A stretch of DNA of 64,000 nucleotides from Bacteroidota bacterium (lineage in GTDB: Bacteria; Bacteroidota; Ignavibacteria; Ignavibacteriales; Ignavibacteriaceae). Shown here one piece after another: positions 3,677 to 59,520 of this stretch (position 1 is the first letter of the stretch; every line of letters begins with the position of its first letter). The position numbers and the translations under genes were made by a program. A model generated the notes under the pieces. The model saw only the letters and a list, made by a program, of their open reading frames with translations. It searched no databases and was not told where the DNA came from. The stretch spans positions 310,001 to 374,000 of the forward strand of contig JAIUOE010000001.1 of the NCBI GenBank assembly GCA_020161395.1. Reading direction: 5' to 3'.

Positions 3677-4515
3677 AAAAAATCCTCCGGGCTTTAGTTT
3701 TCGCAGCATTTTTTATTCCCTCTCTCACGGGTCAGGATTTCATTCCTTATGATATGAAATACTCACAGAAGGAGTGGGATTATTATGCTTCAAATAAAAT
3801 AGTTACAGAAAAGATTACCCGATATTCAACAGGGAAAAATTTTATTCCCGACGGCAAACCGGTGGACAGGAAGATTTTCACCTGTTCACCGGATGGCAGG
3901 CTGGTATCTGCTGTTACCATCGATTCCACAGGCGAGAGAGTGGATTCTTTTTTCTACTATGCAAAAGGGAATTTCAGAAGAATCACCACACACAAAAAAG
4001 GCACCAAAGGATTTGTCCCAACCCGGACCCTTCAGTTTATCAATCAGTCAGGCAAATCGCCGTCAGAAGTGCTGGTATTCACTCATCCCTCTGCGGATGG
4101 TCTTCCAACAGCTACTTACCTTTATGATTACAGTGAAGATAAAAGGAAGGTGAAAATCCTGACTCTCAATCTGGCAGACAGTTCTGTAACTGATACGGCA
4201 TACATTGAGTTTGATAATTCGGGAAGAAAAACAAAGAAGTGGAATCGACAGGAAAGTACAGAATTCAGATATGACGCTGCCGGCAACCTGATTGAGAAAA
4301 AGGTTTTTACAAAAGCGGGAACCTCAATCACAAAATATACGCTCAACAACTCCGGAAGACCCGTGAAGACTACAGAATCATCTCCGGGACAAACCTCCAC
4401 ATCCGAACTCCTCTACAACATGAACGGAATCCTGATCCTGACAAAAACCAGAATTGATTCAGGGAAAAACCAACCCGAAAAATTTGAAGTCGAAATCAGG
4501 GAGATTAGCTATTAA
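3673..4515 (+). CDS. Secreted paralogue of the preceding YD-repeat-like protein
   Basis: I place the start at TTG 3673, inside TTGA, so that it overlaps the previous stop by the usual coupled arrangement. This gives a clean signal peptide (MKKILRALVFAAFFIPSLTG) followed by 'QDFIPYDMKYSQ', matching the mature start of the preceding protein. A GTG at 3646 would add nine residues ahead of the positive n-region and is less likely. The body has YD-like units ('FRYDAAGNLIEKK', 'YNMNGILILTK'). The two genes look like a tandem duplication acting at the cell surface; I recognise no named family. Confidence 0.7.
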   Translation: MKKILRALVFAAFFIPSLTGQDFIPYDMKYSQKEWDYYASNKIVTEKITRYSTGKNFIPDGKPVDRKIFTCSPDGRLVSAVTIDSTGERVDSFFYYAKGNFRRITTHKKGTKGFVPTRTLQFINQSGKSPSEVLVFTHPSADGLPTATYLYDYSEDKRKVKILTLNLADSSVTDTAYIEFDNSGRKTKKWNRQESTEFRYDAAGNLIEKKVFTKAGTSITKYTLNNSGRPVKTTESSPGQTSTSELLYNMNGILILTKTRIDSGKNQPEKFEVEIREISY

Positions 4516-4595
4516 CTATGAGGTATTAACTATGAGGTATTAGCTATGAGGTATTAGCTATGAGGTATTAGCTATGAGGTATTAGCTATGAGCTT
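4512..4595. repeat. 14-bp tandem repeat (six units) with a flanking inverted copy
   Basis: Six head-to-tail units of TTARCTATGAGGTA run from 4512 (units start at 4512, 4526, 4540, 4554, 4568 and 4582); the first two have A and the rest G at the fourth position, and the last unit ends in CTT. Immediately after, 'AGCTCATAGATCATAG' is the inverted form, so the last unit can pair with it as a hairpin. The array fills the gap between convergent genes. The 'AGCTCATAGATCATAG' string recurs at about 36791-36806. Confidence 0.85.
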
Positions 4596-27086: not shown

Positions 27087-27190
27087 TTTTTGGAGGATGG
27101 TTCAATTTGGGGGGGAGGATTGAAAATGGTAAGGAAGTTAATCTCAGTGTTTTCCAAATTTCACTCTGATCAGACAACATAATTCACTTT

Positions 27191-27206
27191 CCGACATTAA
27201 TGTCGG
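27191..27206. promoter_or_regulatory. 16-bp perfect palindrome in the dioxygenase-YoeB gap
   Basis: CCGACATTAATGTCGG is a perfect palindrome in the 265-base space between the dioxygenase start and the YoeB stop. On the minus strand it lies about 110 bases beyond the YoeB stop, so it could be a terminator stem (few following T residues) or a protein-binding site. Confidence 0.35.
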
Positions 27207-27312
27207 GAACATGCCTGTTTTTCGGACTAACTGATTAAAATTCAATTAAATGCAGGTAGAACATCTTCGCAACAACTTTATTAACTCGTTTTGTATAAAC
27301 AAAAACTAGGAT

Positions 27313-27576
27313 CTATAATAAATCGTAGTGAAACTTACAGGCCAAAATAAATATCTTATCATCCACGACTTTATATACAAGTCTGTGTTCTTGAGTAATC
27401 CTTCGCGACCACAAACCCGCCAATTCATAACGAAGAGCCTCAGGTTTTCCGGTTCCCTCATAAGGTGTTCGTTGAATTTCTCTAATCAGATCATTTATTT
27501 TTTTGAGTACTTTTCTATCTTCTGTCTGCCAATCGGTGTAATCTTCCCAGGCTTTTTTAGAAAAGACTATTTCCAT
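27313..27576 (-). CDS. yoeB: YoeB/Txe family toxin (ribosome-dependent mRNA endonuclease)
   Basis: 87 residues. It aligns by eye with E. coli YoeB: the catalytic residues Glu46 ('GKPEAL'), Arg65 ('EHRLVYKV') and His83 ('KFHYDLL') fall at exactly the same positions. 'LAGLWSRRITQEHRLVYKV' is the family core. YoeB cleaves mRNA in the ribosomal A site and is neutralised by YefM. The start overlaps the antitoxin stop as TAATG, the normal antitoxin-first order. Confidence 0.96.
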   Translation of the reverse strand: MEIVFSKKAWEDYTDWQTEDRKVLKKINDLIREIQRTPYEGTGKPEALRYELAGLWSRRITQEHRLVYKVVDDKIFILACKFHYDLL

Positions 27577-27830
27577 TAATCAATTAACTCCGTTACAGTC
27601 ACAACATCACCAGATTCAATTTGAGCCAAAGACTCCAGAATTCGAGCAGTAGTCTTTCTCGATTTTAATAAATGGAGCGTTTCCATAATTGAATTATATT
27701 CCTCTATGGACATGACAACCGATCCTTTACCTGTTGCTCTCTTAAGGAATAAAATTTCGTTGTCGTTCTCAACACTGTCCAGGTAGTTTTTCAGGTTGGA
27801 CCTGAACTCACTAAAATTTGCAAGTATCAT
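27576..27830 (-). CDS. yefM: YefM/Phd family antitoxin
   Basis: 84 residues. The N-terminal DNA-binding Phd/YefM fold has 'FSEFRSNLKNYLDSVENDNEI' and 'VVMSIEEYNSIMETLHLL'. It represses its own operon and blocks YoeB through its flexible C-terminus. It overlaps the toxin start by one base. The AT-rich stretch at 27831-27898 should hold the promoter. Confidence 0.95.
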   Translation of the reverse strand: MILANFSEFRSNLKNYLDSVENDNEILFLKRATGKGSVVMSIEEYNSIMETLHLLKSRKTTARILESLAQIESGDVVTVTELID

Positions 27831-27898
27831 TGTTTTCTCATTTATTTACATTAATAAGTACAAATATAAGTACTTTTTTGAGAATATCAAATGTATTT

Positions 27899-29191
27899 TT
27901 AACGACTATGTTTGCCAAAAAAATCGCTCATTTCTGCCAAATACGGGATTGCACCATATCGCCCTTCCAGATACTCCTTTTCGAACCTGTCGTTCTTGCG
28001 AACCTGTATATCTGAAAGCGAATACAATTTTGCCGCTCCGAAAAGATCTTTTTCTATGAACCAAACCTGATCCCGTCTTAAAAGTTTTGAACTGAGAATG
28101 TTACTGCCATGAGTATTAAATATTAATTGTGCTCCGGTGACATTTCCAATCGAATTAAATAGTTCAACGATTTTTTCAGTTAAATTGGGGTGTAAACCGG
28201 AGTCAAGTTCATCCACCACCAGAGTGTTTCCGTCTGCCAATGCCTCAACAATCGGATAGGCGAGAGAGAAAAATTTCCTGGTACCACCCGACTCGTCATT
28301 TATCATTGAGAATTCTATCTCCTCTGCAGAACCATTCTTCTCATCGAACTTCAGGTGAGTTGTAGTTACCCCTTCCAAAACTGAAGGAAGGCTATTCACT
28401 TTTACAAAACCGGACGGCTCAATTGTCGGGTCGAAATCATCAGTTTTATCCAGCGACAAATTCTTTATATTGAAATTCACGATACCGATGTCTGCTGATA
28501 TCAGAAATTGAAGTATCTTCTTTTTAACTTCGGGATTCATTGAATTAGAAACAGTCATTTTCTCCTGGAAACTTGAATCAATACCGGACAGAATCCTCAA
28601 CTTTCTAAACCACTGCATTATTTTTTCGACATTAACATCATTCGCTTGCGCAGCGCTGGAAAGCAGAAGACAATTTGAACGGATTAATGGCTTAAAAAAT
28701 TCATTCCTGAATATCTTAAACAAGGCCGGATGAGCATTAACCTCTTCACCATCACGGTTAAATATCATAACCTCTTTCCGATTCTCTCTTTTCCACAACC
28801 ATTCTTTAACAACTCTAACCGTATCGACTTCAAATCCATATCGATAAATCGTATCATCCTGGAGGAAAACCAACTCAAATCCGGATGGCTTTTTTGAGGT
28901 CTCCTTACTAAGCAGATGCTGATTTACTTGTATCGGGTCACCATTCTTTAGCGACTGGAACGAATTCAAAGCAAACCAACGAACAAACGACAGTGCTTCA
29001 ACAAACTTGCTCTTACCAGAGGCATTAGCACCAAATATCGCTGCACTCTTTAGTATCCTAAGTTTGAACTTGTCGTCATATCGGACATTCTCCGATTCTC
29101 TTTCTGACTTATCGTAATTGGAGGCTATCATACTAAAAACAACCTCATCCTTAAAAGTACGATAGTTCCTGACTCTAAACTCAAGCAACAT
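27899..29191 (-). CDS. COG1106-type AAA/ABC-like ATPase (AAA_15/AAA_21), orphan
   Basis: 430 residues. N-terminal 'LEFRVRNYRTFKDEVVFSMIAS', Walker A 'FGANASGKSKF', an ABC-type insertion, a 'DESGGTRKFFSLAY' signature-like loop, Walker B 'TLVVDELDSGLHP', and 'IFNTHGSNILSS' as the switch histidine. The C-terminus 'EYLEGRYGAIPYL' is typical of the ATPases that pair with RloB-like proteins in defence loci, but no RloB gene adjoins it; the next gene is the YefM antitoxin. An ATP-driven sensor or regulator of an antiphage system is likely from the family and context, but not shown. Confidence 0.88.
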   Translation of the reverse strand: MLLEFRVRNYRTFKDEVVFSMIASNYDKSERESENVRYDDKFKLRILKSAAIFGANASGKSKFVEALSFVRWFALNSFQSLKNGDPIQVNQHLLSKETSKKPSGFELVFLQDDTIYRYGFEVDTVRVVKEWLWKRENRKEVMIFNRDGEEVNAHPALFKIFRNEFFKPLIRSNCLLLSSAAQANDVNVEKIMQWFRKLRILSGIDSSFQEKMTVSNSMNPEVKKKILQFLISADIGIVNFNIKNLSLDKTDDFDPTIEPSGFVKVNSLPSVLEGVTTTHLKFDEKNGSAEEIEFSMINDESGGTRKFFSLAYPIVEALADGNTLVVDELDSGLHPNLTEKIVELFNSIGNVTGAQLIFNTHGSNILSSKLLRRDQVWFIEKDLFGAAKLYSLSDIQVRKNDRFEKEYLEGRYGAIPYLAEMSDFFGKHSR

Positions 29192-29378
29192 AAATAATAA
29201 AACCTGTTTTTGTAAGTAATATGCAAAAATGTATTTTATTTTTGAAAAACCAAATTATTTTTTACATTTTTTGGGAATTGTTTGCAATAGAGTGATGTTT
29301 TAGGTATTTAGAGGTAACTTTGGTGTCTGGACAAGAAGCTCTAAGTGTTGAAGTAAATTAGAAGATAAAACCGATAGA

Positions 29379-30389
29379 TTAGTTGAATGTTGTTTCGGCG
29401 ACATAATTTTGAAGGTATGCAATTGCTTTGCCCAGGTCATCAAATGATTGGCATAGAGCTAAAATTCGGCGATTATTTTTTTTAATTTGTACTGTATATT
29501 GACACCCAGTCTGAATTACTTCCGCAGTGATTAATCCTTTTTCAGGAAGTTCACCTGTCCATTTATCAATGGTGATTCTATGCCATTCGATATCGGGTTT
29601 AAGCGATTCAAGAGCATTTCTGAATTGAGAGGCAGATAAAAATCTCTTATTCACCTCAAGATTTGTTGCCTTTCGAATAATGGCCTTCATTTTCTTTGGA
29701 ATGTAACTTTCGTATCCCAATGTTTCTAATAGAGTTCCGCTTTTTAACCTTTCTCCTATATCACCAATTTGATTTATTCTTTCTCTCCAATTCGCAATAT
29801 TATTCAGCGCTCGAAATAATGATACTCCCACAGCATAAATATCTGACTGAAGAGTCGTTGTTCCATTAACTATTATTTCAGGAGCTAGATGGGTGGTGTA
29901 ACCAACTATTGAATTTAAAGTTTTAGTAGCTAGAATAGTTGCTAATCCAAAATCCGATAGCTTGGCGTAGTTCTTATCTATCATTATATTGGCAGGTTTA
30001 ACATCGCGGTGCAATATACTTTTTGAATGAGCGAACTCAAGGCCGAATAGTATATCTATGAATATTTTCCTGACCTCTTTAATCGAAACAAACGTATTTG
30101 CTAATTGACATTCTAAGGAACCACCCCCTATGAATTCCATATCAATAATTACTACCTTTCGACCTTCCGATTCATATACATCTGCTTCATTTATCTTAAC
30201 AATATGTTTATGTTTGCACTTGTTCAGCAATCTTGCTTCATTCAAGACCGATGTTATTTGTTCATCAGAATCGATGTTTATCACTTTTATTGCTTTTTCT
30301 TGCTCGATTGCACGATCGAATGCTTTGAATACTTGGCCGAACTGCCCTTCTCCAAGCGAACAGATTATCTGATACTTACCAATTTCCAT
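29379..30389 (-). CDS. Soluble Hanks-type Ser/Thr protein kinase
   Basis: 336 residues, no membrane helix or PASTA domains. All catalytic elements are present: glycine loop GEGQFGQV 13-20, Lys35 (AIKVI), Glu51 of the alphaC helix, HRDVKPAN at 127-134, DFG 146-148, and APE-like 'LAPEI'. After the kinase lobe ends near 265, about 70 residues form a small additional beta-rich domain ('TAEVIQTGCQYTVQIKKNNR'). It starts 17 bases after the small RNase-H-like gene, so the two are probably co-transcribed. A stand-alone kinase inside a restriction/toxin island suggests defence or stress signalling. Confidence 0.93.
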   Translation of the reverse strand: MEIGKYQIICSLGEGQFGQVFKAFDRAIEQEKAIKVINIDSDEQITSVLNEARLLNKCKHKHIVKINEADVYESEGRKVVIIDMEFIGGGSLECQLANTFVSIKEVRKIFIDILFGLEFAHSKSILHRDVKPANIMIDKNYAKLSDFGLATILATKTLNSIVGYTTHLAPEIIVNGTTTLQSDIYAVGVSLFRALNNIANWRERINQIGDIGERLKSGTLLETLGYESYIPKKMKAIIRKATNLEVNKRFLSASQFRNALESLKPDIEWHRITIDKWTGELPEKGLITAEVIQTGCQYTVQIKKNNRRILALCQSFDDLGKAIAYLQNYVAETTFN

Positions 30390-30406
30390 TTAATCAACCC
30401 TCAATT

Positions 30407-30856
30407 TTATAGGCACAACCATGCAGATAGTAAAGCGTTTTTTTGATTATCGTCCCAATACGGTGGATGACATCCAAAATGATCATCGCAATAATCGAAC
30501 ATATTTAGTCCCTTTGGTAACCCAAATTTCGTTGAGGTGAAATTCTGTTTTACATACTCTATACAACTGATCCCTTCCTGATAGCTGATGTTATTAAGAA
30601 GTGCTGCAGGAAAAATTAGATTGTGAATTTGCTCTTTGTTTGGTCCTAACGAAAGGCGATATCCAATCTTTGAAGGTGAGTGAGCCTTTATTATCTGTCT
30701 AAATATCGAATCAAATCTGTCCATGTATTCAGGAATACAAGGAGTTGGATTTATTATCACTCTTTCTTTTAAGACAAGTTTTGGACTTGATTTAGAACCT
30801 TCAAGAAGACAAAACCTAATGTTGCCTTTTTGAAAATCGAATCCTAATGATCTCAC
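30407..30856 (-). CDS. Small RNase-H/actin-fold-like protein
   Basis: About 149 residues from GTG 30856, chosen because GGAGG stands five bases upstream; the ATG at 30868 would place that ribosome binding site inside the gene. The first strand 'SLGFDFQKGNIRFCLLEG' resembles the opening strand of RNase-H-fold proteins, with an Asp (residue 7) in place. The end 'YWDDNQKNALLSAWLCL' resembles the last Asp-bearing helix of RuvC-like enzymes. I infer an RNase-H-like fold, perhaps an inactive or nuclease adaptor. It lies between the HExxH gene and the kinase in an apparent operon. No named family is certain. Confidence 0.6.
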   Translation of the reverse strand: MRSLGFDFQKGNIRFCLLEGSKSSPKLVLKERVIINPTPCIPEYMDRFDSIFRQIIKAHSPSKIGYRLSLGPNKEQIHNLIFPAALLNNISYQEGISCIEYVKQNFTSTKFGLPKGLNMFDYCDDHFGCHPPYWDDNQKNALLSAWLCL

Positions 30857-30927
30857 AAATACCTCCATAATAGTGTTTTTGATGTAAGTTTTTTGTCTGC
30901 TATTTTTTCCGTTTGTAAATAGCTGGT

Positions 30928-32298
30928 TTAAGTACCCTCTAAGTTTTGTTGTTTAGGCATATTATCATATAATTTTAATAATCCCAATTCATTCAGAGCT
31001 GAATGGAAAATATTCTTTGGTGGAAAAGAAATTGAATTATAATCATCACAGTCACTATTGCAGTCTGGATAAGTATATATATCTAAAAAATTCTTATCAC
31101 GTTTGGCGATTCTTTCCACATCCAGACTCTCCAAAATTTCATATGTTGCCAATAGTAAACAGGTAAATTCTAATGAATTACTCTTTCGATTAAAATCTGA
31201 AAGTGATTTATTCATTAATATTATTGGAAGAGGAAATTTTTCAAGGATATCAAAAAAAGACTTGTTAAAATTATCGATATCTATATGATTTTGAGAATTC
31301 GTTTCAAGAAATGGACGAATAAAATAGAAAGGGTCTGTTTGTCTCAATAAAAGTGCCTTCTCGAAAATGTCACAAAAGTAACCCGTAGCCTCCACGATTT
31401 TAGACCTCCCTTGTGATTTTGCTTCATTCTTAAATCTTTTAATATAGTTCACTATTTCGATACTGACAAGTTTCAAGCTTGCATCTTTTCTTAAAAAAAT
31501 TTCTGGGTCTTTCCTGAACACATTCTCTCCAACCGTTTTTATTCCTTCAAGTATACTTATAAAAGAATCTGCGGGATTCTTAGAATTTAGTGCAGTATAT
31601 GTTATTAATATTTTTTCTATTATAGTGGGTCGGAATTCGAGATAATAATTTAGGAAAGCTTCAAGACATCTATACGGATAGTATGGTCGATTTAAAAGGA
31701 ATTCAGAGGTAAGAGTTGATAGATCTTGACTAAAAAAATACTCATCAATTGCAGTACAAAAGAATTCATCTAATGCTCCAAATGTCAAATAAAATGAATC
31801 ACGCTCGTAACAATCAGAAATGTGAACTTTTATCCTAGTTGTTGTCCCAATTCTCTTTATGCCATTTATTTTGAATTTGTTATCTTTTCGAATTCGCTCG
31901 ATTTTTGTTATTTTAAAGCTTGGAAAGTTTTTCCCGAATCTTTTCGCAAGATCCCTATCAATATCATCCTCTTTCAAAAATTTACAAACATCTTTCCAAT
32001 AGCGAACATCATCGTAGGTTAATTTATGTTTGTTGCTATTTATTGGGAAAGCGTTAATACCCAGAACTGAGGCCATTCGAGTAATTATTCTAAACCTGTC
32101 AAAAAAGTTAATGCTAAATTGTCGAACTCCGGCACAAGTTGAAAGATTAATCAAATAATGATAATACTCATGAAAGATTGGGGCATGTTTCTTCTTGAAT
32201 CCAATATCCCGATTTAATGATCGAATATCTTTTGTTTTCACCCCATCAAGACCTGCGTAAAACCGATCAGGAAAATATCTAATTTCATTGTAATTCAT
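30928..32298 (-). CDS. Unknown protein with an HExxH motif, predicted zinc metalloprotease
   Basis: 456 residues, AT-rich codon use. Near the N-terminus 'PIFHEYYHYLINLS' contains His43-Glu44-Tyr-Tyr-His47, the zincin HExxH core in a hydrophobic helix. A candidate third ligand is Glu178 or Glu186 in 'FGALDEFFCTAIDEYFF', which has the acidic-helix look of gluzincins. The remaining 270 residues are helical without a recognised domain, and no signal peptide is seen, so the protein should be cytoplasmic. It is the first gene of a three-gene unit (protease-like, RNase-H-like, kinase). Enzymatic activity is inferred from the motif only. Confidence 0.65.
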   Translation of the reverse strand: MNYNEIRYFPDRFYAGLDGVKTKDIRSLNRDIGFKKKHAPIFHEYYHYLINLSTCAGVRQFSINFFDRFRIITRMASVLGINAFPINSNKHKLTYDDVRYWKDVCKFLKEDDIDRDLAKRFGKNFPSFKITKIERIRKDNKFKINGIKRIGTTTRIKVHISDCYERDSFYLTFGALDEFFCTAIDEYFFSQDLSTLTSEFLLNRPYYPYRCLEAFLNYYLEFRPTIIEKILITYTALNSKNPADSFISILEGIKTVGENVFRKDPEIFLRKDASLKLVSIEIVNYIKRFKNEAKSQGRSKIVEATGYFCDIFEKALLLRQTDPFYFIRPFLETNSQNHIDIDNFNKSFFDILEKFPLPIILMNKSLSDFNRKSNSLEFTCLLLATYEILESLDVERIAKRDKNFLDIYTYPDCNSDCDDYNSISFPPKNIFHSALNELGLLKLYDNMPKQQNLEGT

Positions 32299-32453
32299 AA
32301 AACTTCCTTTTTTTATAAATAATACCTAATCATATCTGAAAATACTATTAAACTTCATCCTTTTAGCTAAAGAGCATGCAAAGTCTAGCATTCCGTGTGA
32401 ATCTACTTTACAATCTTAATACAAAAACAATATCGCAAATAAAGTCAAAGTTT

Positions 32454-35400
32454 CTAAACCTCAAACACTTCATCTATCTCCTTCATAAGTCTGTCTGTCT
32501 CTGTCAAGGCGACTATAATTTTCTGATAGTGAAAGATATCTTCAAAGTTTAGAATTCTGCTCTTCCGGTCTTTTAGCCATTTTTGAGCAGGCTGATATCC
32601 ACCGATATAAAATTCCCAGGCTGTTTGTGGCACACCCTCAAAATATTGAGTTTTATTAATAAAAACCTTTTGATCCTGATAAGTTATCTTTTCGACTTCG
32701 TTGTCTCCCTCAATAGGATAACGGGTGATATATTGACTGACTGTTGGACTCTCAAGCAGATGAATCTGTCTCAGTTCGCCGCCAAGTTTAACCATTTCCC
32801 AAAATGATTCCGCATCGGTCGGATAGGGCACTCTTGGGAAATCTATTCTTAAAAATTCTTTGTATTTTGTTCTGTATTTTGGAGAGTGCAAAACTGCGTA
32901 TATATAATCAAGTATGTCGATCGGGGCAAAGGTACCTTCGGTTTCCTCTTTCTCCGGAGTGAAGGTTAGTCTAAGTTTGTCCGCAATTTGTGAAACGATT
33001 ACCAAATTTAGATTCGGTTGTCTATAGCACCTCTCTGTTTCATTGAATTTAATTTTTGTAGTTGAATCGGTATGGTTATCATAAATGTAAAGTGGGAAAA
33101 CATATCCCGTCTCTTTAGTCTGAAGGGAAACTGTACATCTTTCCGTAATTGTATTACTAACCAGAATATGTTGAAAATCAAAAGTGCTTTGCTGCCTACA
33201 TGAAGTCAGAGCCAAATTATTCTCTTCAAAATGTTTCATAGTCGCAAAACTGGGACGCCTTAGAACAGTAGGATTATAGTACAGACTCCTCAAGTCGAAT
33301 GGCCGATAGAGTACCCTTTTAATGTGTTCTTTCCCAAAATTTGTTTTTTTTATATTTTCAATCATTGGGAAATTACTATTGTTCTTTATATCATATTTTT
33401 GTATCAATTTTGGGTCGTCCAGATTTCGATAAACAAATTCCACTCTTTCAGCTAATTCCTTTTTGTCAAAATCAATAAAAAGGGAATCCCTGCCGGACTC
33501 AATCCCGGTATTGTAATTTTCAAATATCTTGTTTAAGGGAAAAAATAACTGGTAATCTGACATCTCCATATAGTTTACTGGCGTGAAAAAATGGTTACTA
33601 TCACCTATTGGGATGAGTTGCCAATTTAGCTCAGGAAGACTGATACCCAATAGTTGAGCATATTTAATATCCCTAATACCGAAAATTTCAGAATGCAAAA
33701 TTTGCCCATATTTCCCTATTTTCTTACCTGTTTTAATAAAAAGATTGATGCTAACGCCCTGCATAATATCAAAAACATTTTCATCCTTTGAACCGTCAGG
33801 AGCTTTTTCTTTTTTCTTGGCATTGCCGTGAAGATCGAGAATGTAAATCTTGTCAAAACTTTGAAGTAGCGATTCTCTCATTTTTCTGTGGATTAGTCCA
33901 TCTATAAAACTGTTGTTGGTGATGAACGCTAAAATCCCTTCCCCGTTCTTGTCGATCAGATGTTGACCAAATCTAATGAACTTGATATAATCATCGGAAA
34001 GCGGTTGAATATTTCTTTCATTCAGTTCTCTTTTGTAATCAGCAACGAGCCGTTCTATCCATGCTCCCTTGTTACTACTGCTTACGGAATATGGAGGATT
34101 TCCGATAACCACCATAACGGGAGTGTCTCTTTTGATGAAGTTTGCTTCATTTGCTTCACTGCTCAACCATTTTGCAAAAAGAGTCCCTGTGTCGGGGTGA
34201 TACTCCTCGAGGCTGTTCGTGAGATAGACACGATACCTTTGCTCTTTTGTTGGCTTGAAACCTGTTTCCTTTAGTAGAATATCCAGTTTCAGATGTGCCA
34301 TGGCATAACTTGCCATCAAAATTTCGAAGCCGTTTAATCTGGGAATAAGATGATTCTCGACATAGTTGCTCCATACTCCCTTTTGCCCTTCAAATTTTTT
34401 ATGAATGTGCTTAATCACTTCAGCGAGAAATGTAACCGTGCCGGCAGCAGGATCGAGAATTTGAACTTTGTGAACCTCCTGTTCAACTTTTTTCCCTTGA
34501 AAATCCACTTTAATCTTTGTTTTGGATGTATCTGAAAGCCCTTCATTAAGTCCAAATTCTGTTTTAAGGATATCATCAACCGCACGAACAATAAAGTTGA
34601 CCACGGGAGCAGGTGTGTACCAGACTCCTCTGGCTTTCCGAAGTGAGGGATCATATTCCGCAAGAAAATTCTCGTAAAAATGGATAACGGGGTCTTCTTT
34701 TTTATCAACTTTACCAAAATCTTTCATGAGCTCCTGTACATCGGTGGCTCGAAAAACATCGGCGAGAGATTCCACTATCCATTTAATTCTGTCATCTATA
34801 TCAGGTCCCGCAATATAATTGAACAGTTTTCTAAGAAACGGGTTGGTTTTAGGGATAAGTTCAGCAGCTTCCTGCCGTGAAAAATTTTCAAGGGTGGGGT
34901 CGTGATATCGTGCAGCAAACATACCATACGCAATGGTCTGAGCATAAATATCGGCAAATTCCTTGTTCCCAATATCATGAATCAACACTTCCTTAAAACC
35001 GTTCATTTGATCTTTGAGGGATGAGTCCTCATTTTCCAGATCATCATTTTCAAGAGACCTTTCCAGAACATCTGATAACATCCTTGCTTTTGATGCCATC
35101 ATTTCAGCAAGTTGTTTGGAACTGGTGATTGTCTGGCCTGTTTTCAGGCAGAAATTGGTGATCAAGTCGGTAAACCGGGAGAAGTTTTCTCTCAGAACAA
35201 CAATTTTCCCGTCGTGCAAATCGGCAAGTTTAACCGAACTGACAAATTTTCCATTTATATAATAATGAAAGTCGAGGTAGTCAGTGAAAATGAGATTATT
35301 GAGTGAGTTGCGATATCTGTCGAATTGTTCTTTAAGATTTTTGTGGGAGAGATCAATACCAATATCCTTTGCTTCAATGAAACCAACAGGGATATTTTCT

Positions 35401-35603
35401 CTTGTGATGATGTAATCAGGTGCACCACATTTAATTCTTGCAGGTTCATTTGTCACGAGTACATCAGGCACCATGCTCTCAAGAAGCAGTTGAAGATCAC
35501 CACGATAGGCATGCTCTCGTGAGATACCGGTTTTATAACGCTTTGAGATGTTTTCCAGATACTCTTTAATCGTCATTTTGTATAATTTTTCAGTATTAAA
35601 CAT
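32454..35603 (-). CDS. Type IIG/ISP-like fused restriction endonuclease and N6-adenine methyltransferase
   Basis: 1049 residues. The N-terminal PD-(D/E)XK nuclease has Asp63 ('GAPDYII') and Glu77-Ala-Lys79 ('GFIEAK'). A helical linker leads to the gamma-class N6 methyltransferase: motif X 'GVWYTP', motif I 'DPAAGT' at 384-389, and catalytic 'NPPY' at 502-505. The C-terminal ~450 residues resemble the type ISP specificity domain ('RPFDLRSLYYNPTVLRRP', 'PLYIYDNH', 'LDYIYAVLHSPKYRTKYKEFL'). There is no helicase domain, so it is a type IIG-like single-chain enzyme that both methylates and cuts. An alternative start is the ATG at 35576. Confidence 0.92.
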   Translation of the reverse strand: MFNTEKLYKMTIKEYLENISKRYKTGISREHAYRGDLQLLLESMVPDVLVTNEPARIKCGAPDYIITRENIPVGFIEAKDIGIDLSHKNLKEQFDRYRNSLNNLIFTDYLDFHYYINGKFVSSVKLADLHDGKIVVLRENFSRFTDLITNFCLKTGQTITSSKQLAEMMASKARMLSDVLERSLENDDLENEDSSLKDQMNGFKEVLIHDIGNKEFADIYAQTIAYGMFAARYHDPTLENFSRQEAAELIPKTNPFLRKLFNYIAGPDIDDRIKWIVESLADVFRATDVQELMKDFGKVDKKEDPVIHFYENFLAEYDPSLRKARGVWYTPAPVVNFIVRAVDDILKTEFGLNEGLSDTSKTKIKVDFQGKKVEQEVHKVQILDPAAGTVTFLAEVIKHIHKKFEGQKGVWSNYVENHLIPRLNGFEILMASYAMAHLKLDILLKETGFKPTKEQRYRVYLTNSLEEYHPDTGTLFAKWLSSEANEANFIKRDTPVMVVIGNPPYSVSSSNKGAWIERLVADYKRELNERNIQPLSDDYIKFIRFGQHLIDKNGEGILAFITNNSFIDGLIHRKMRESLLQSFDKIYILDLHGNAKKKEKAPDGSKDENVFDIMQGVSINLFIKTGKKIGKYGQILHSEIFGIRDIKYAQLLGISLPELNWQLIPIGDSNHFFTPVNYMEMSDYQLFFPLNKIFENYNTGIESGRDSLFIDFDKKELAERVEFVYRNLDDPKLIQKYDIKNNSNFPMIENIKKTNFGKEHIKRVLYRPFDLRSLYYNPTVLRRPSFATMKHFEENNLALTSCRQQSTFDFQHILVSNTITERCTVSLQTKETGYVFPLYIYDNHTDSTTKIKFNETERCYRQPNLNLVIVSQIADKLRLTFTPEKEETEGTFAPIDILDYIYAVLHSPKYRTKYKEFLRIDFPRVPYPTDAESFWEMVKLGGELRQIHLLESPTVSQYITRYPIEGDNEVEKITYQDQKVFINKTQYFEGVPQTAWEFYIGGYQPAQKWLKDRKSRILNFEDIFHYQKIIVALTETDRLMKEIDEVFEV

Positions 35604-36015
35604 TGAAAAGAAAAAAATAAGGAAATCATCATTTTAATGATTTTTCCCTCCGGTAAATTTACAAAAGATATTCGTTTTAACAAAAAACGGTTGCTTTACC
35701 TGCCCATATGTCGCCCGGAGGGCTTTCTTGGGATTTGGTCGCTGTTTTTCTACCCATATGTCGCCCGAAGGGCTTTCTTGGGAGTAGTCGCTGTTGTTTC
35801 TACCAACATTCATCCCTCTTCGAGGGAAGCGGTGTGGGGGGGTATGCATTATTTCTACCAACATTCATCCCTCTTCGAGGGAAGCGGTATGGAGGGCATG
35901 GATTATATCTACCAACATTCATCCCTCTTCGAGGGAAGCGGTGGTGGTGTGGGATGTTTCATCTATTTTACGAACATGGCACTCGCCCGGGCGAGTTTTC
36001 CCATTTTATAAATTT

Positions 36016-36110
36016 GTCGGCAGGACAATCGAGACGATTGTCGCTCCTTTTCCGAAATCATAATATCTTATCTGCGAAAATCCGTCTAATCCGCGTGTAT
36101 CTGCGTCCCC
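36016..36110. repeat. 95-base dispersed element, copy 1
   Basis: It starts GTCGGCAGGACAATCGAGAC with the stem GACAATC-GA-GACGATTGTC-type hairpin, continues through 'CTGCGAAAATCCGTC' and ends 'CTGCGTCCCC'. Copy 2 is at 36427-36521, a truncated copy lies at about 36736-36775, and a nearly identical copy stands beside nfo at 59426-59520. Confidence 0.85.
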
Positions 36111-36426
36111 TGCCCATATGTCGCCCGAAGGGCTTTCTTGGGATTTGGTCGCTGTGTTCTACCCATATGTCGCCCGGAGGGCTATTTGGGGAATTTGCGC
36201 TCCGTTTCTCTACCAACATTCATCCCTCTTCGAGGGAAGCGGTGTGTGGGGGGGTATGCATTATTTCTACCAACATTCATCCCTCTTCGAGGGAAAAGGT
36301 GTGGGGGTATGCATTATTTCTACAAACATTTATCCCTCTTCGAGGGAAGCGGTGGTAGTGTGGGATGTTTCATCTATTTAACGAACATGGCACTTGAGCG
36401 GGCGAGTTTTCCCATATTATAAATTT

Positions 36427-36521
36427 GTCGGCAGGACAATCGAGACGATTGTCGCTCCTTTTCCGAAATCATAATATCTCATCTGCGAAAATCCGTCCAT
36501 TCCGCGCGTATCTGCGTCCCC
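36427..36521. repeat. 95-base dispersed element, copy 2
   Basis: Same length and same internal order as the copy at 36016-36110, with a handful of substitutions in the second half. The hairpin at its left end is fully conserved. Confidence 0.85.
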
Positions 36522-36914
36522 TGCCCATATGTCGCCCGAAGGGCTATTTGGGGAATTTGCGCTCCGTTTCTCTACCAACATTCATCCCTCTTCGAGGGAA
36601 GCGGTGTGGGGGGGGTATGCATTATTTCTACAAACATTTATCCCTCTTCGAGGGAAGCGGTGTGGGGGGGGATGTTTCATCTATTTTACGAACATGGCAC
36701 TTGACCGGGCGAGTTTTCCCATATTATAAATTTGTTGGCAGGACAATCGGGACGATTGTCGCTCCTTTTCCGAAACTGGAGGTTTCAACCAGCTCATAGA
36801 TCATAGATAGTAGTTCATAACTATTTCTCCGCTCCTCCTGAAAATTATTACAATTCATAAAAATTTTGTTATTTAGAGGTTCCATTAATATATTTTTTAA
36901 AGGAGTTATACGAA

Positions 36915-38177
36915 ATGGCGGTCATAAGACCATTCAGGGCATTGAGACCCGAAAAAGGAGTAGCCGAGCAGGTAGCAAGCGTACCTTACGATGTAGTAAG
37001 CACTGACGAAGCAAGGAACCTTGCGGAAGGAAATCCACTCAGTTTTTTGAGAATTACACGGTCGGAACTTGAATTCCCGAATTCACAGGATCCGTATGCA
37101 ACAGAGATATACACAAAAGCAAAAGAAAATCTTGCAAACATAACAGCTTCCGCCCCTCTGATTGAGGAGAAGGACGCTTCGTTTTATCTCTATCGCCTGA
37201 CGATGGATGGACGGAGCCAGACGGGAATTGCAGCTACATTTTCTGTTGATGACTATGACAACGACATAATCCTGAAGCATGAAAAAACACGCAAGGTTAA
37301 AGAAGACGACAGAACGAACCACATTATTACCACCGGTGCCCAAACCGGAGTGGTTTTCCTTACCTGCAAAGGTGTGCAAAGCGTCAATTCACTTGTGGCT
37401 GATATCATCAGATTGACCGCACCGCTGTATGATTTTACCGCTCCCGATGGAATCCGTCATGAAGTGTGGCAGATACCCCTTGAAAACAACGGAAAGATCG
37501 TCGAAGAGATAAGAAAAGTAAAAAATCTCTACATTGCCGACGGTCACCACAGAGCCGCGTCAGCTTCGAGAGCAAGAGCGGTTGCGAAAGAGAACAATCC
37601 CGCTCACAGAGGTTCGGAAGATTATAACTTCTTTATTGCCGTCCTTTTCCCTGCTGAGGAATTGAAAATACTCCCTTACAACCGTGTCGTGATTGATTTG
37701 AATGGCAACTCCGTTTCAGATTTCTTCACAAAAATCCAGCAGAATTTTGAAGTGACGGATAACGGTATCCCTTCACCTGCGAAAAAAGGTGAATTCAGCA
37801 TGTACCTCGACGGAAAGTGGTACGGACTCAAACTTACCGGTGACCATTATGCTGATGGAGTGCTGAAGGGCGCAACTTCAGTGGGTGATACACTCGATGT
37901 AAGCATCCTGCAAAACTTTCTTCTCGAACCCGTGCTTGGAGTGGATGACCCGAGAACGAGCAAAAGAATCGATTTTATCGGCGGCATCCGTGGAACTGCA
38001 GAACTTGAAAAATTAGTGGACTCGGGTAAATTCGGCGTGGCTTTCTCTCTCTACCCTGTAACCGTTGAAGATTTGATGAAAATCTCCGATGCAGGCGAAG
38101 TGATGCCCCCTAAATCAACCTGGTTCGAACCAAAATTGAGAGACGGACTCCTTACCCACCTCATCGAAGTGGAATAG
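36915..38177 (+). CDS. DUF1015 family protein
   Basis: 420 residues, start preceded by AAAGGAG. 'FRALRPEKGVAEQVASVPYDVV' and 'YIADGHHRAASASRARA' are the two conserved DUF1015 segments. The biochemical role is unknown; the family is often encoded beside serC, as here (34-base gap), and has been linked by genome context to serine or phosphoserine metabolism. The gene is intact and of normal length. Confidence 0.93.
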   Translation: MAVIRPFRALRPEKGVAEQVASVPYDVVSTDEARNLAEGNPLSFLRITRSELEFPNSQDPYATEIYTKAKENLANITASAPLIEEKDASFYLYRLTMDGRSQTGIAATFSVDDYDNDIILKHEKTRKVKEDDRTNHIITTGAQTGVVFLTCKGVQSVNSLVADIIRLTAPLYDFTAPDGIRHEVWQIPLENNGKIVEEIRKVKNLYIADGHHRAASASRARAVAKENNPAHRGSEDYNFFIAVLFPAEELKILPYNRVVIDLNGNSVSDFFTKIQQNFEVTDNGIPSPAKKGEFSMYLDGKWYGLKLTGDHYADGVLKGATSVGDTLDVSILQNFLLEPVLGVDDPRTSKRIDFIGGIRGTAELEKLVDSGKFGVAFSLYPVTVEDLMKISDAGEVMPPKSTWFEPKLRDGLLTHLIEVE

Positions 38178-59425: not shown

Positions 59426-59520
59426 GTCGGCAGGACAATCGAGACGATTGTCGCTCCTTTTCCGAAATCAAATTATCCCCTCTGCGAAAATCCGTCAAAC
59501 CTGCGTGTATCTGCGTCCCC
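59426..59520. repeat. 95-base dispersed element, copy beside nfo
   Basis: Nearly identical in length and order to the copies at 36016-36110 and 36427-36521, 23 kb away. It starts GTCGGCAGGACAATCGAGAC with a perfect stem GACAATC/GATTGTC and ends 'CTGCGTCCCC' one base before the nfo stop codon. The 80 bases before it, after the dnaB stop, are featureless. Confidence 0.85.

Follow-up and report, generated by a model that had tools for sequence, protein, structure and literature searches.

The window analyzed here (a stretch of 64,000 nucleotides from a Bacteroidota bacterium of the family Ignavibacteriaceae) contains an intergenic array of approximately 1.1 kb in which several different hairpins recur in a fixed order (positions 35699-36775). 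The question raised by this locus is to which family, or families, of elements these hairpins belong, and whether a transposase encoded elsewhere in the genome serves them.

Structure of the array

The array consisted of five copies of unit a, eight of unit b, three of unit c, three of unit d, and two of a spacer (e), in the order aabbbcde-aabbbcde-abbcd. The units, the supermodules that they form, and the neighboring genes were as follows:

32454-35603, minus strand: type IIG/ISP restriction-modification enzyme, left neighbor (not beside the array in the sister genome, G003)
35699-36109, plus strand: supermodule M1 (aabbbcde)
36110-36520, plus strand: supermodule M2 (aabbbcde)
36521-36775, plus strand: supermodule M3 (abbcd, contracted)
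35700-35723, plus strand: unit a, CT[AG]CCCATATGTC and a GCCC hairpin (other copies at 35750, 36110, 36159, and 36521)
35800-35828, plus strand: unit b, CTAC[CA]AACATT[CT]A and a TCCCTC/GAGGGA hairpin, head in common with the units flanking transposase B (other copies at 35855, 35909, 36210, 36267, 36320, 36572, and 36628)
35968-35996, plus strand: unit c, T[AT]ACGAACATGGC and an ACTCGC-type hairpin (other copies at 36379 and 36686)
36007-36057, plus strand: unit d, GCAG foot and an 8-bp palindrome, GACAATCG/CGATTGTC (other copies at 36418 and 36725)
36058-36109, plus strand: spacer e, no hairpin (second copy at 36469-36520)
36915-38177, plus strand: DUF1015 protein, right neighbor and anchor of the orthologous site
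59426-59520, plus strand: isolated copy of d and e elsewhere in the window

The preliminary description, made from the sequence of this region, had counted eight copies of b and five of a, repeated in the same order in supermodules of about 400 bases; these counts were exact, and the period was 411 bases. TRF and a repeat finder independently returned periods of 50, 54, and 411 bases, and the b core, present eight times in the window, was expected only 0.02 times from shuffles. Identity was 91.9% between M1 and M2 (408 bp), 94.3% between M2 and M3 (over the shared part), and 90.0% between M1 and M3; M3 resembled M2 minus one a and one b, and spacer e was also absent from it. A similar head had been attributed to all four hairpins. 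This held for a, b, and c, although the B-type head of unit c was followed by a different stem (imperfect in copies 2 and 3), whereas TATAAATTTGT of unit d was not a version of the head and belonged to a separate GTAG-foot type. When folded alone, single hairpins were not unusually stable (z-scores of +0.5 to -1.4), and support for the hairpin units is provided by their repetition and compensating stems, not by the stability of single folds.

An assembly artefact was unlikely because the array was located in the interior of a 670-kb contig and the supermodule copies differed by 6-10%. A CRISPR-like reading was rejected by eye, the constant repeats having no unique spacers between them. No match was found in an Rfam search of the window and the transposase loci. 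Spacer e (ATCTGCGAAAATCCGTC...ATCTGCG) was itself dispersed and hairpin-free: many genome BLAST matches to the supermodule query fell at 382-421, and the spacer was also found near one transposase gene of G003 (L191). Arrays of this kind yield spurious open reading frames (e.g., 35708-36358), which is a warning for annotation.

In G003, the LigB gene, the array, and the DUF1015 gene were contiguous, and the ~8.6 kb that separates LigB from the array in the present genome (window 27114-35698) was absent. This segment carries genes for an AbiLi-like AAA ATPase, a protein kinase (with matches to the PD-T4-6 model), two unknown proteins, and the type IIG restriction-modification enzyme, and is a defense-like island with the array at its end. 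Short 'GAACTATTAGCTATGA / ATCATAGATCATAGATAGTAGTTCATA' wordlike repeats adjoined several unit clusters (window 4510-4592 and 36790-36825, and locus L058), and a 14-base tandem, TATTAGCTATGAGG, was repeated 5.9 times at window 4510.

Dispersal of the units

A BLAST search of the 4.07-Mb genome with one supermodule as the query gave matches at 90 places. The head CTACSAACAT (b, c) had 74 genome copies (22 for the reversed-pattern control), the a-like head CTACCCATAY 53 (8 for the control), and the d palindrome 34 (0 for the control), in agreement with the earlier suggestion of a REP-like nature. On the other hand, these copy numbers were modest (tens) and below the >100 usual for REPs. Unit copies formed about 48 clusters genome-wide, of which 22 were single and 15 contained more than one family, and the units of arrays were mostly arranged head to tail. 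Of the 34 d units, 19 had an a- or b-type head no more than 700 bp away; shifting positions within contigs gave an expectation of 0.8 (the lengths of three contigs being approximated). A big cluster containing every unit type was observed at 600-8750 of L058 (contig C3 of this genome, about 368-376 kb), together with interleaved small genes, judged by eye to resemble toxin-antitoxin pairs, and another hairpin repeat, ATGGGGTTGAAACCCCAT.

Y1 transposases of the genome

A search of the genome with the Y1_Tnp profile revealed three Y1 (HUH) transposase genes, each with its own hairpin type on both sides in inverted orientation; the heads pointed toward the gene in the case of A and B. Transposase A (contig C13, 149 aa) had CTACCCATAC..CCCC..GGGG units on both sides, transposase B (contig C10, 151 aa) was flanked by CTACGAACATATAACCCCGCTTCGGGG units, and transposase C (contig C10, 156 aa from the probable ATG) had d units on both sides, of which the downstream copies have GTAG feet (the d copies of the window read GCAG). 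The longest frame of C begins upstream, inside its REP units (L055, 705-900), and the ATG at 900 is the likelier start. A and B, present in a single copy each and 49% identical to each other, contained the motifs DH[IV]H, WQ, and Y---Q--HH, which are the signature reported for TnpA subclass 1.2; both scored above the NCBIfam cut-off for IS200/IS605, and their PDB matches were ISDra2- and IS608-type transposases. C scored above the NCBIfam cut-off for RAYT (NF047646), and its sole PDB match was a TnpA_REP entry (4er8).

The units were therefore not unique to this locus, nor was the genome devoid of a transposase, and a tyrosine transposase located elsewhere, as previously suspected, was found three times over. 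A single REP-like family, in contrast, could not be maintained: unit d, which has no CTAC head, is an ordinary GTAG-type REP of the class-2 RAYT C, and unit a belongs to a subclass 1.2 transposase other than the one sharing its head with b and c. A transposase with precisely b or c at its flanks was not found. Unit a appears to be orphaned in this genome, where no transposase gene flanked by it was found; genes of this kind were present in the sister species (see below).

Head-to-stem geometry

Head copies from this genome and the sister loci were counted together. A perfect GC-rich stem followed the CTAC[CG]AACAT head in 57 of 72 cases, exactly 3 nt later in 55 of them, and the A-type head in 45 of 60, nearly always at 3 or 4 nt (A-type heads fail the criterion of a 5-bp stem and pass at 4 bp); only 1 and 2% of shuffled segments, respectively, had such a stem. 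In units a-c, the stem began 13-14 nt past the first base of the CTAC head. The common form is thus a CTAC head, about 9-10 nt, and a hairpin of 4-6 bp, with the head 5' of the palindrome. At least five different, still-paired stems were found (TCCCTC/GAGGGA, ACCCC/GGGGT, ACACGC/GCGTGT, ACTCGC/GCGAGT, and ACCTGC/GCAGGT); therefore, the head and spacing were kept while the stem sequence changed, as would be expected if the head and the folded shape are recognized.

Distribution among relatives

An A1-like match was found in 46 of 59 relatives. The only one clearly enriched in the heads was the sister species G003 (CTACSAACAT, 43 vs 20 for the control; CTACCCATAY, 84 vs 9), which has orthologues of A (93%) and B (94%) flanked by the same units as here. 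The neighbors of A and B on both sides were conserved in G003, consistent with vertical inheritance. Two more subclass 1.2 genes of G003 (L190 and L191) were flanked by CTACCCATATGTCGCCCTAAAGGGC, which corresponds to unit a. These two genes were 92% identical, with the downstream DNA matching beyond the units; here an entire tnpA locus was duplicated recently, an event that may illustrate how such loci multiply. In the congener G001, there was no subclass 1.2 match and head counts were low (CTACSAACAT, 9 vs 4; CTACCCATAY, 3 vs 7). G002 carried a diverged transposase surrounded by another head, CTACCGACAT, and the heads of the present genome were not enriched there (CTACSAACAT, 8 vs 20; CTACCCATAY, 10 vs 15).

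The orthologous slot of G003, upstream of a DUF1015 gene (96% identical), contained six near-identical b units (five of which had CTACGAACAT heads), a degenerate c, and one d, with neither unit a nor a supermodule, while that of G001 (DUF1015, 81% identical) had no array. From this comparison, the supermodules are specific to the lineage of the present genome, or were lost in G003, and the expansion by local duplication proposed earlier gains support. Copies were also homogenized within each array.

Subclass 1.2 genes in other genomes

Subclass 1.2 of TnpA_Y1 has been listed as 'REP: no' (Quentin et al. 2018; PMC6006769), and the literature that we searched, the coverage of which was incomplete, contained no subsequent description of repeats paired with it, so that the absence of such a description is unproven. 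From public genomes, we took 80 subclass-1.2-like loci (the majority with the Y---Q--HH motif) and measured the coverage by repeated 12-mers according to the distance from the gene, the far bins serving as internal controls; an initial count of CTAC/GTAG tags near hairpins had given mixed results, and this measure was used in its place. Coverage was 26.8% in the 250 bp beside the gene and 17.7% in the adjoining 250 bp; at a distance of 1.5-3 kb, it was down to 1.4-1.8%. It exceeded 10% beside the gene in 76% of the loci (1% at 1.5-3 kb). When A and B were included, repeated hairpins were located near the gene in 74 of 82 loci, and on both sides in 42. Transposase identity and head similarity were correlated (Mantel r of 0.31; 0 of 2000 permutations as high), with orthologues included in the comparison. 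A deep head consensus across phyla was rejected and is not claimed here, because the averaged profile (3.75 bits) did not clearly exceed the opposite-side control (3.47 bits); single loci looked alike by eye.

Concerning the generality of unit dispersal, the results were partly negative. In Weeksellaceae MIP2422 (L093), the flanking repeat block was a ~3-kb array solely around the transposase gene: BLAST of the block gave 10 matches (85-100% identity), none of them elsewhere in the genome. Nearly all unit matches in Labilibaculum were the flanking ones, while Brumimicrobium had 29 unit matches on four contigs.

Alternative explanations

A plain tandem (satellite-like) repeat, grown by slippage or recombination with no involvement of a transposase, would explain both the 411-bp supermodules and the missing a and b copies of M3 (one of each) as products of recombination, as well as the homogenization of b copies within each array. 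It is nevertheless unlikely: the same units occurred in about 48 clusters, transposase genes of both this genome and the sister species were surrounded by these unit types, and heads were clearly enriched only where transposase orthologues occurred, such that this explanation accounts for the last step only. It is also distinctly improbable that the array is a BIME-like mosaic consisting entirely of the usual GTAG REPs of a class-2 RAYT. Unit d does fit (a GTAG foot beside RAYT C, an 8-bp palindrome, and G[CT]AG/GTTG variants elsewhere), and CTAC is GTAG on the opposite strand. However, class-2 REPs carry GT[AG]G at the hairpin foot (0-2 nt), whereas CTAC of units a-c is on the same strand, 13-14 nt 5' of the stem; furthermore, the arrays were mostly head to tail, and the genes flanked by the CTAC-headed units were of subclass 1.2 (Y---Q--HH, scoring as IS200) and not of class 2 (Y---NP). 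Similarly, BIMEs and REPINs are composite intergenic mosaics of palindromic units, as is this array, but the orientation of REPs alternates in BIMEs, while units of at least three transposases were mixed here, mostly in one direction.

An origin from the orphan ends of IS200/IS605 insertion sequences that have decayed is suggested by the resemblance of A and B, as class-1 transposases, to those of IS608 and ISDra2, and by the conserved head 5' of the hairpin, which looks like an IS end and lies where the guide sequences of IS200/IS605 are found. IS200/IS605 elements usually occur as several near-identical copies, whereas A and B were single-copy and inherited in place, with neighbors unchanged in the sister species, and no multi-copy parent element was found in the genome with the Y1_Tnp profile. 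In an IS200/IS605 element, both subterminal hairpins are read on one strand; the units flanking A and B were mutually inverted, with their heads toward the gene. We consider this origin very unlikely. A regulatory or terminator array acting on the flanking genes might be expected in a divergent intergenic region such as this, and a T-rich tail followed d, with five terminator-like sites against 1.8 expected. Only d and one spacer stretch were terminator-like, however, Rfam gave no match, the left gene differed in G003 although the array persisted, and the right gene stood without an array in G001; a role of this type seems highly implausible.

Proposed origin and implications

We consider it probable that the array is a mosaic in which several different Y1 (HUH) transposases act in trans on non-autonomous, REP-like units: units a-c would be those of TnpA subclass 1.2 (class 1, IS200/IS605-like, Y---Q--HH) and unit d that of a class-2 RAYT. 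At the level of sequence, this reading is based on the pairing of unit types with transposases, their dispersal, the fixed geometry with compensating stems, the co-occurrence of heads and transposases among relatives, and a lineage-specific copy number. As in the class-2 REP/RAYT system (TnpA_REP, REPtron; Nunvar 2010; Di Nocera 2013; Quentin 2018), single-copy Y1 transposases were flanked by inverted hairpins, and copies of several families per genome were dispersed between genes; unit d and RAYT C fit this system, as a GTAG-foot palindrome flanking a class-2 transposase. A and B agreed with subclass 1.2 as published (about 148 aa and low copy) in length, motifs, and copy number, and differed from it in being flanked by hairpin repeats with dispersed relatives. 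Units a-c are REP-like, yet lack two of the features by which class-2 REP/RAYT systems are defined; their anatomy was tested here, and we infer that they work like REPs with another transposase subclass.

Cleavage, mobility, strand preference, and the manner of block duplication are modeled on the IS200/IS605 and RAYT literature. The transposase would bind the folded hairpin in single-stranded DNA (e.g., the lagging-strand template) and nick near the head, guided by the sequence 5' of the palindrome. Units would then be moved or copied to intergenic sites, often next to older units, and slippage and unequal recombination between near-identical copies would expand, contract, and homogenize the arrays, giving rise to the 411-bp supermodules. 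For the duplication of the 411-bp block, ordinary recombination between units may suffice, and the transposase need not be involved. The clustering of units of different transposases may reflect either a preference for landing next to units already present or the tolerance of insertions at the same sites between genes.

A broader proposal, to which we give an even chance of being correct, is that TnpA subclass 1.2 drives its own REP-like class in several phyla, a single-ended, IS200/IS605-style 'CTAC-linker-hairpin' that forms head-to-tail arrays and represents a second REP/RAYT-like domestication, from class 1 and not class 2. The fixed head-stem distance and natural stem variants offer a ready test of DNA recognition by subclass 1.2 enzymes. 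If the pairing is general, these transposases, catalogued without repeats, would gain a likely substrate, Y1 transposases would have been recruited to REP-like systems on at least two separate occasions, and an explanation would be at hand for many of the hairpin repeats between genes in Bacteroidota and other phyla.
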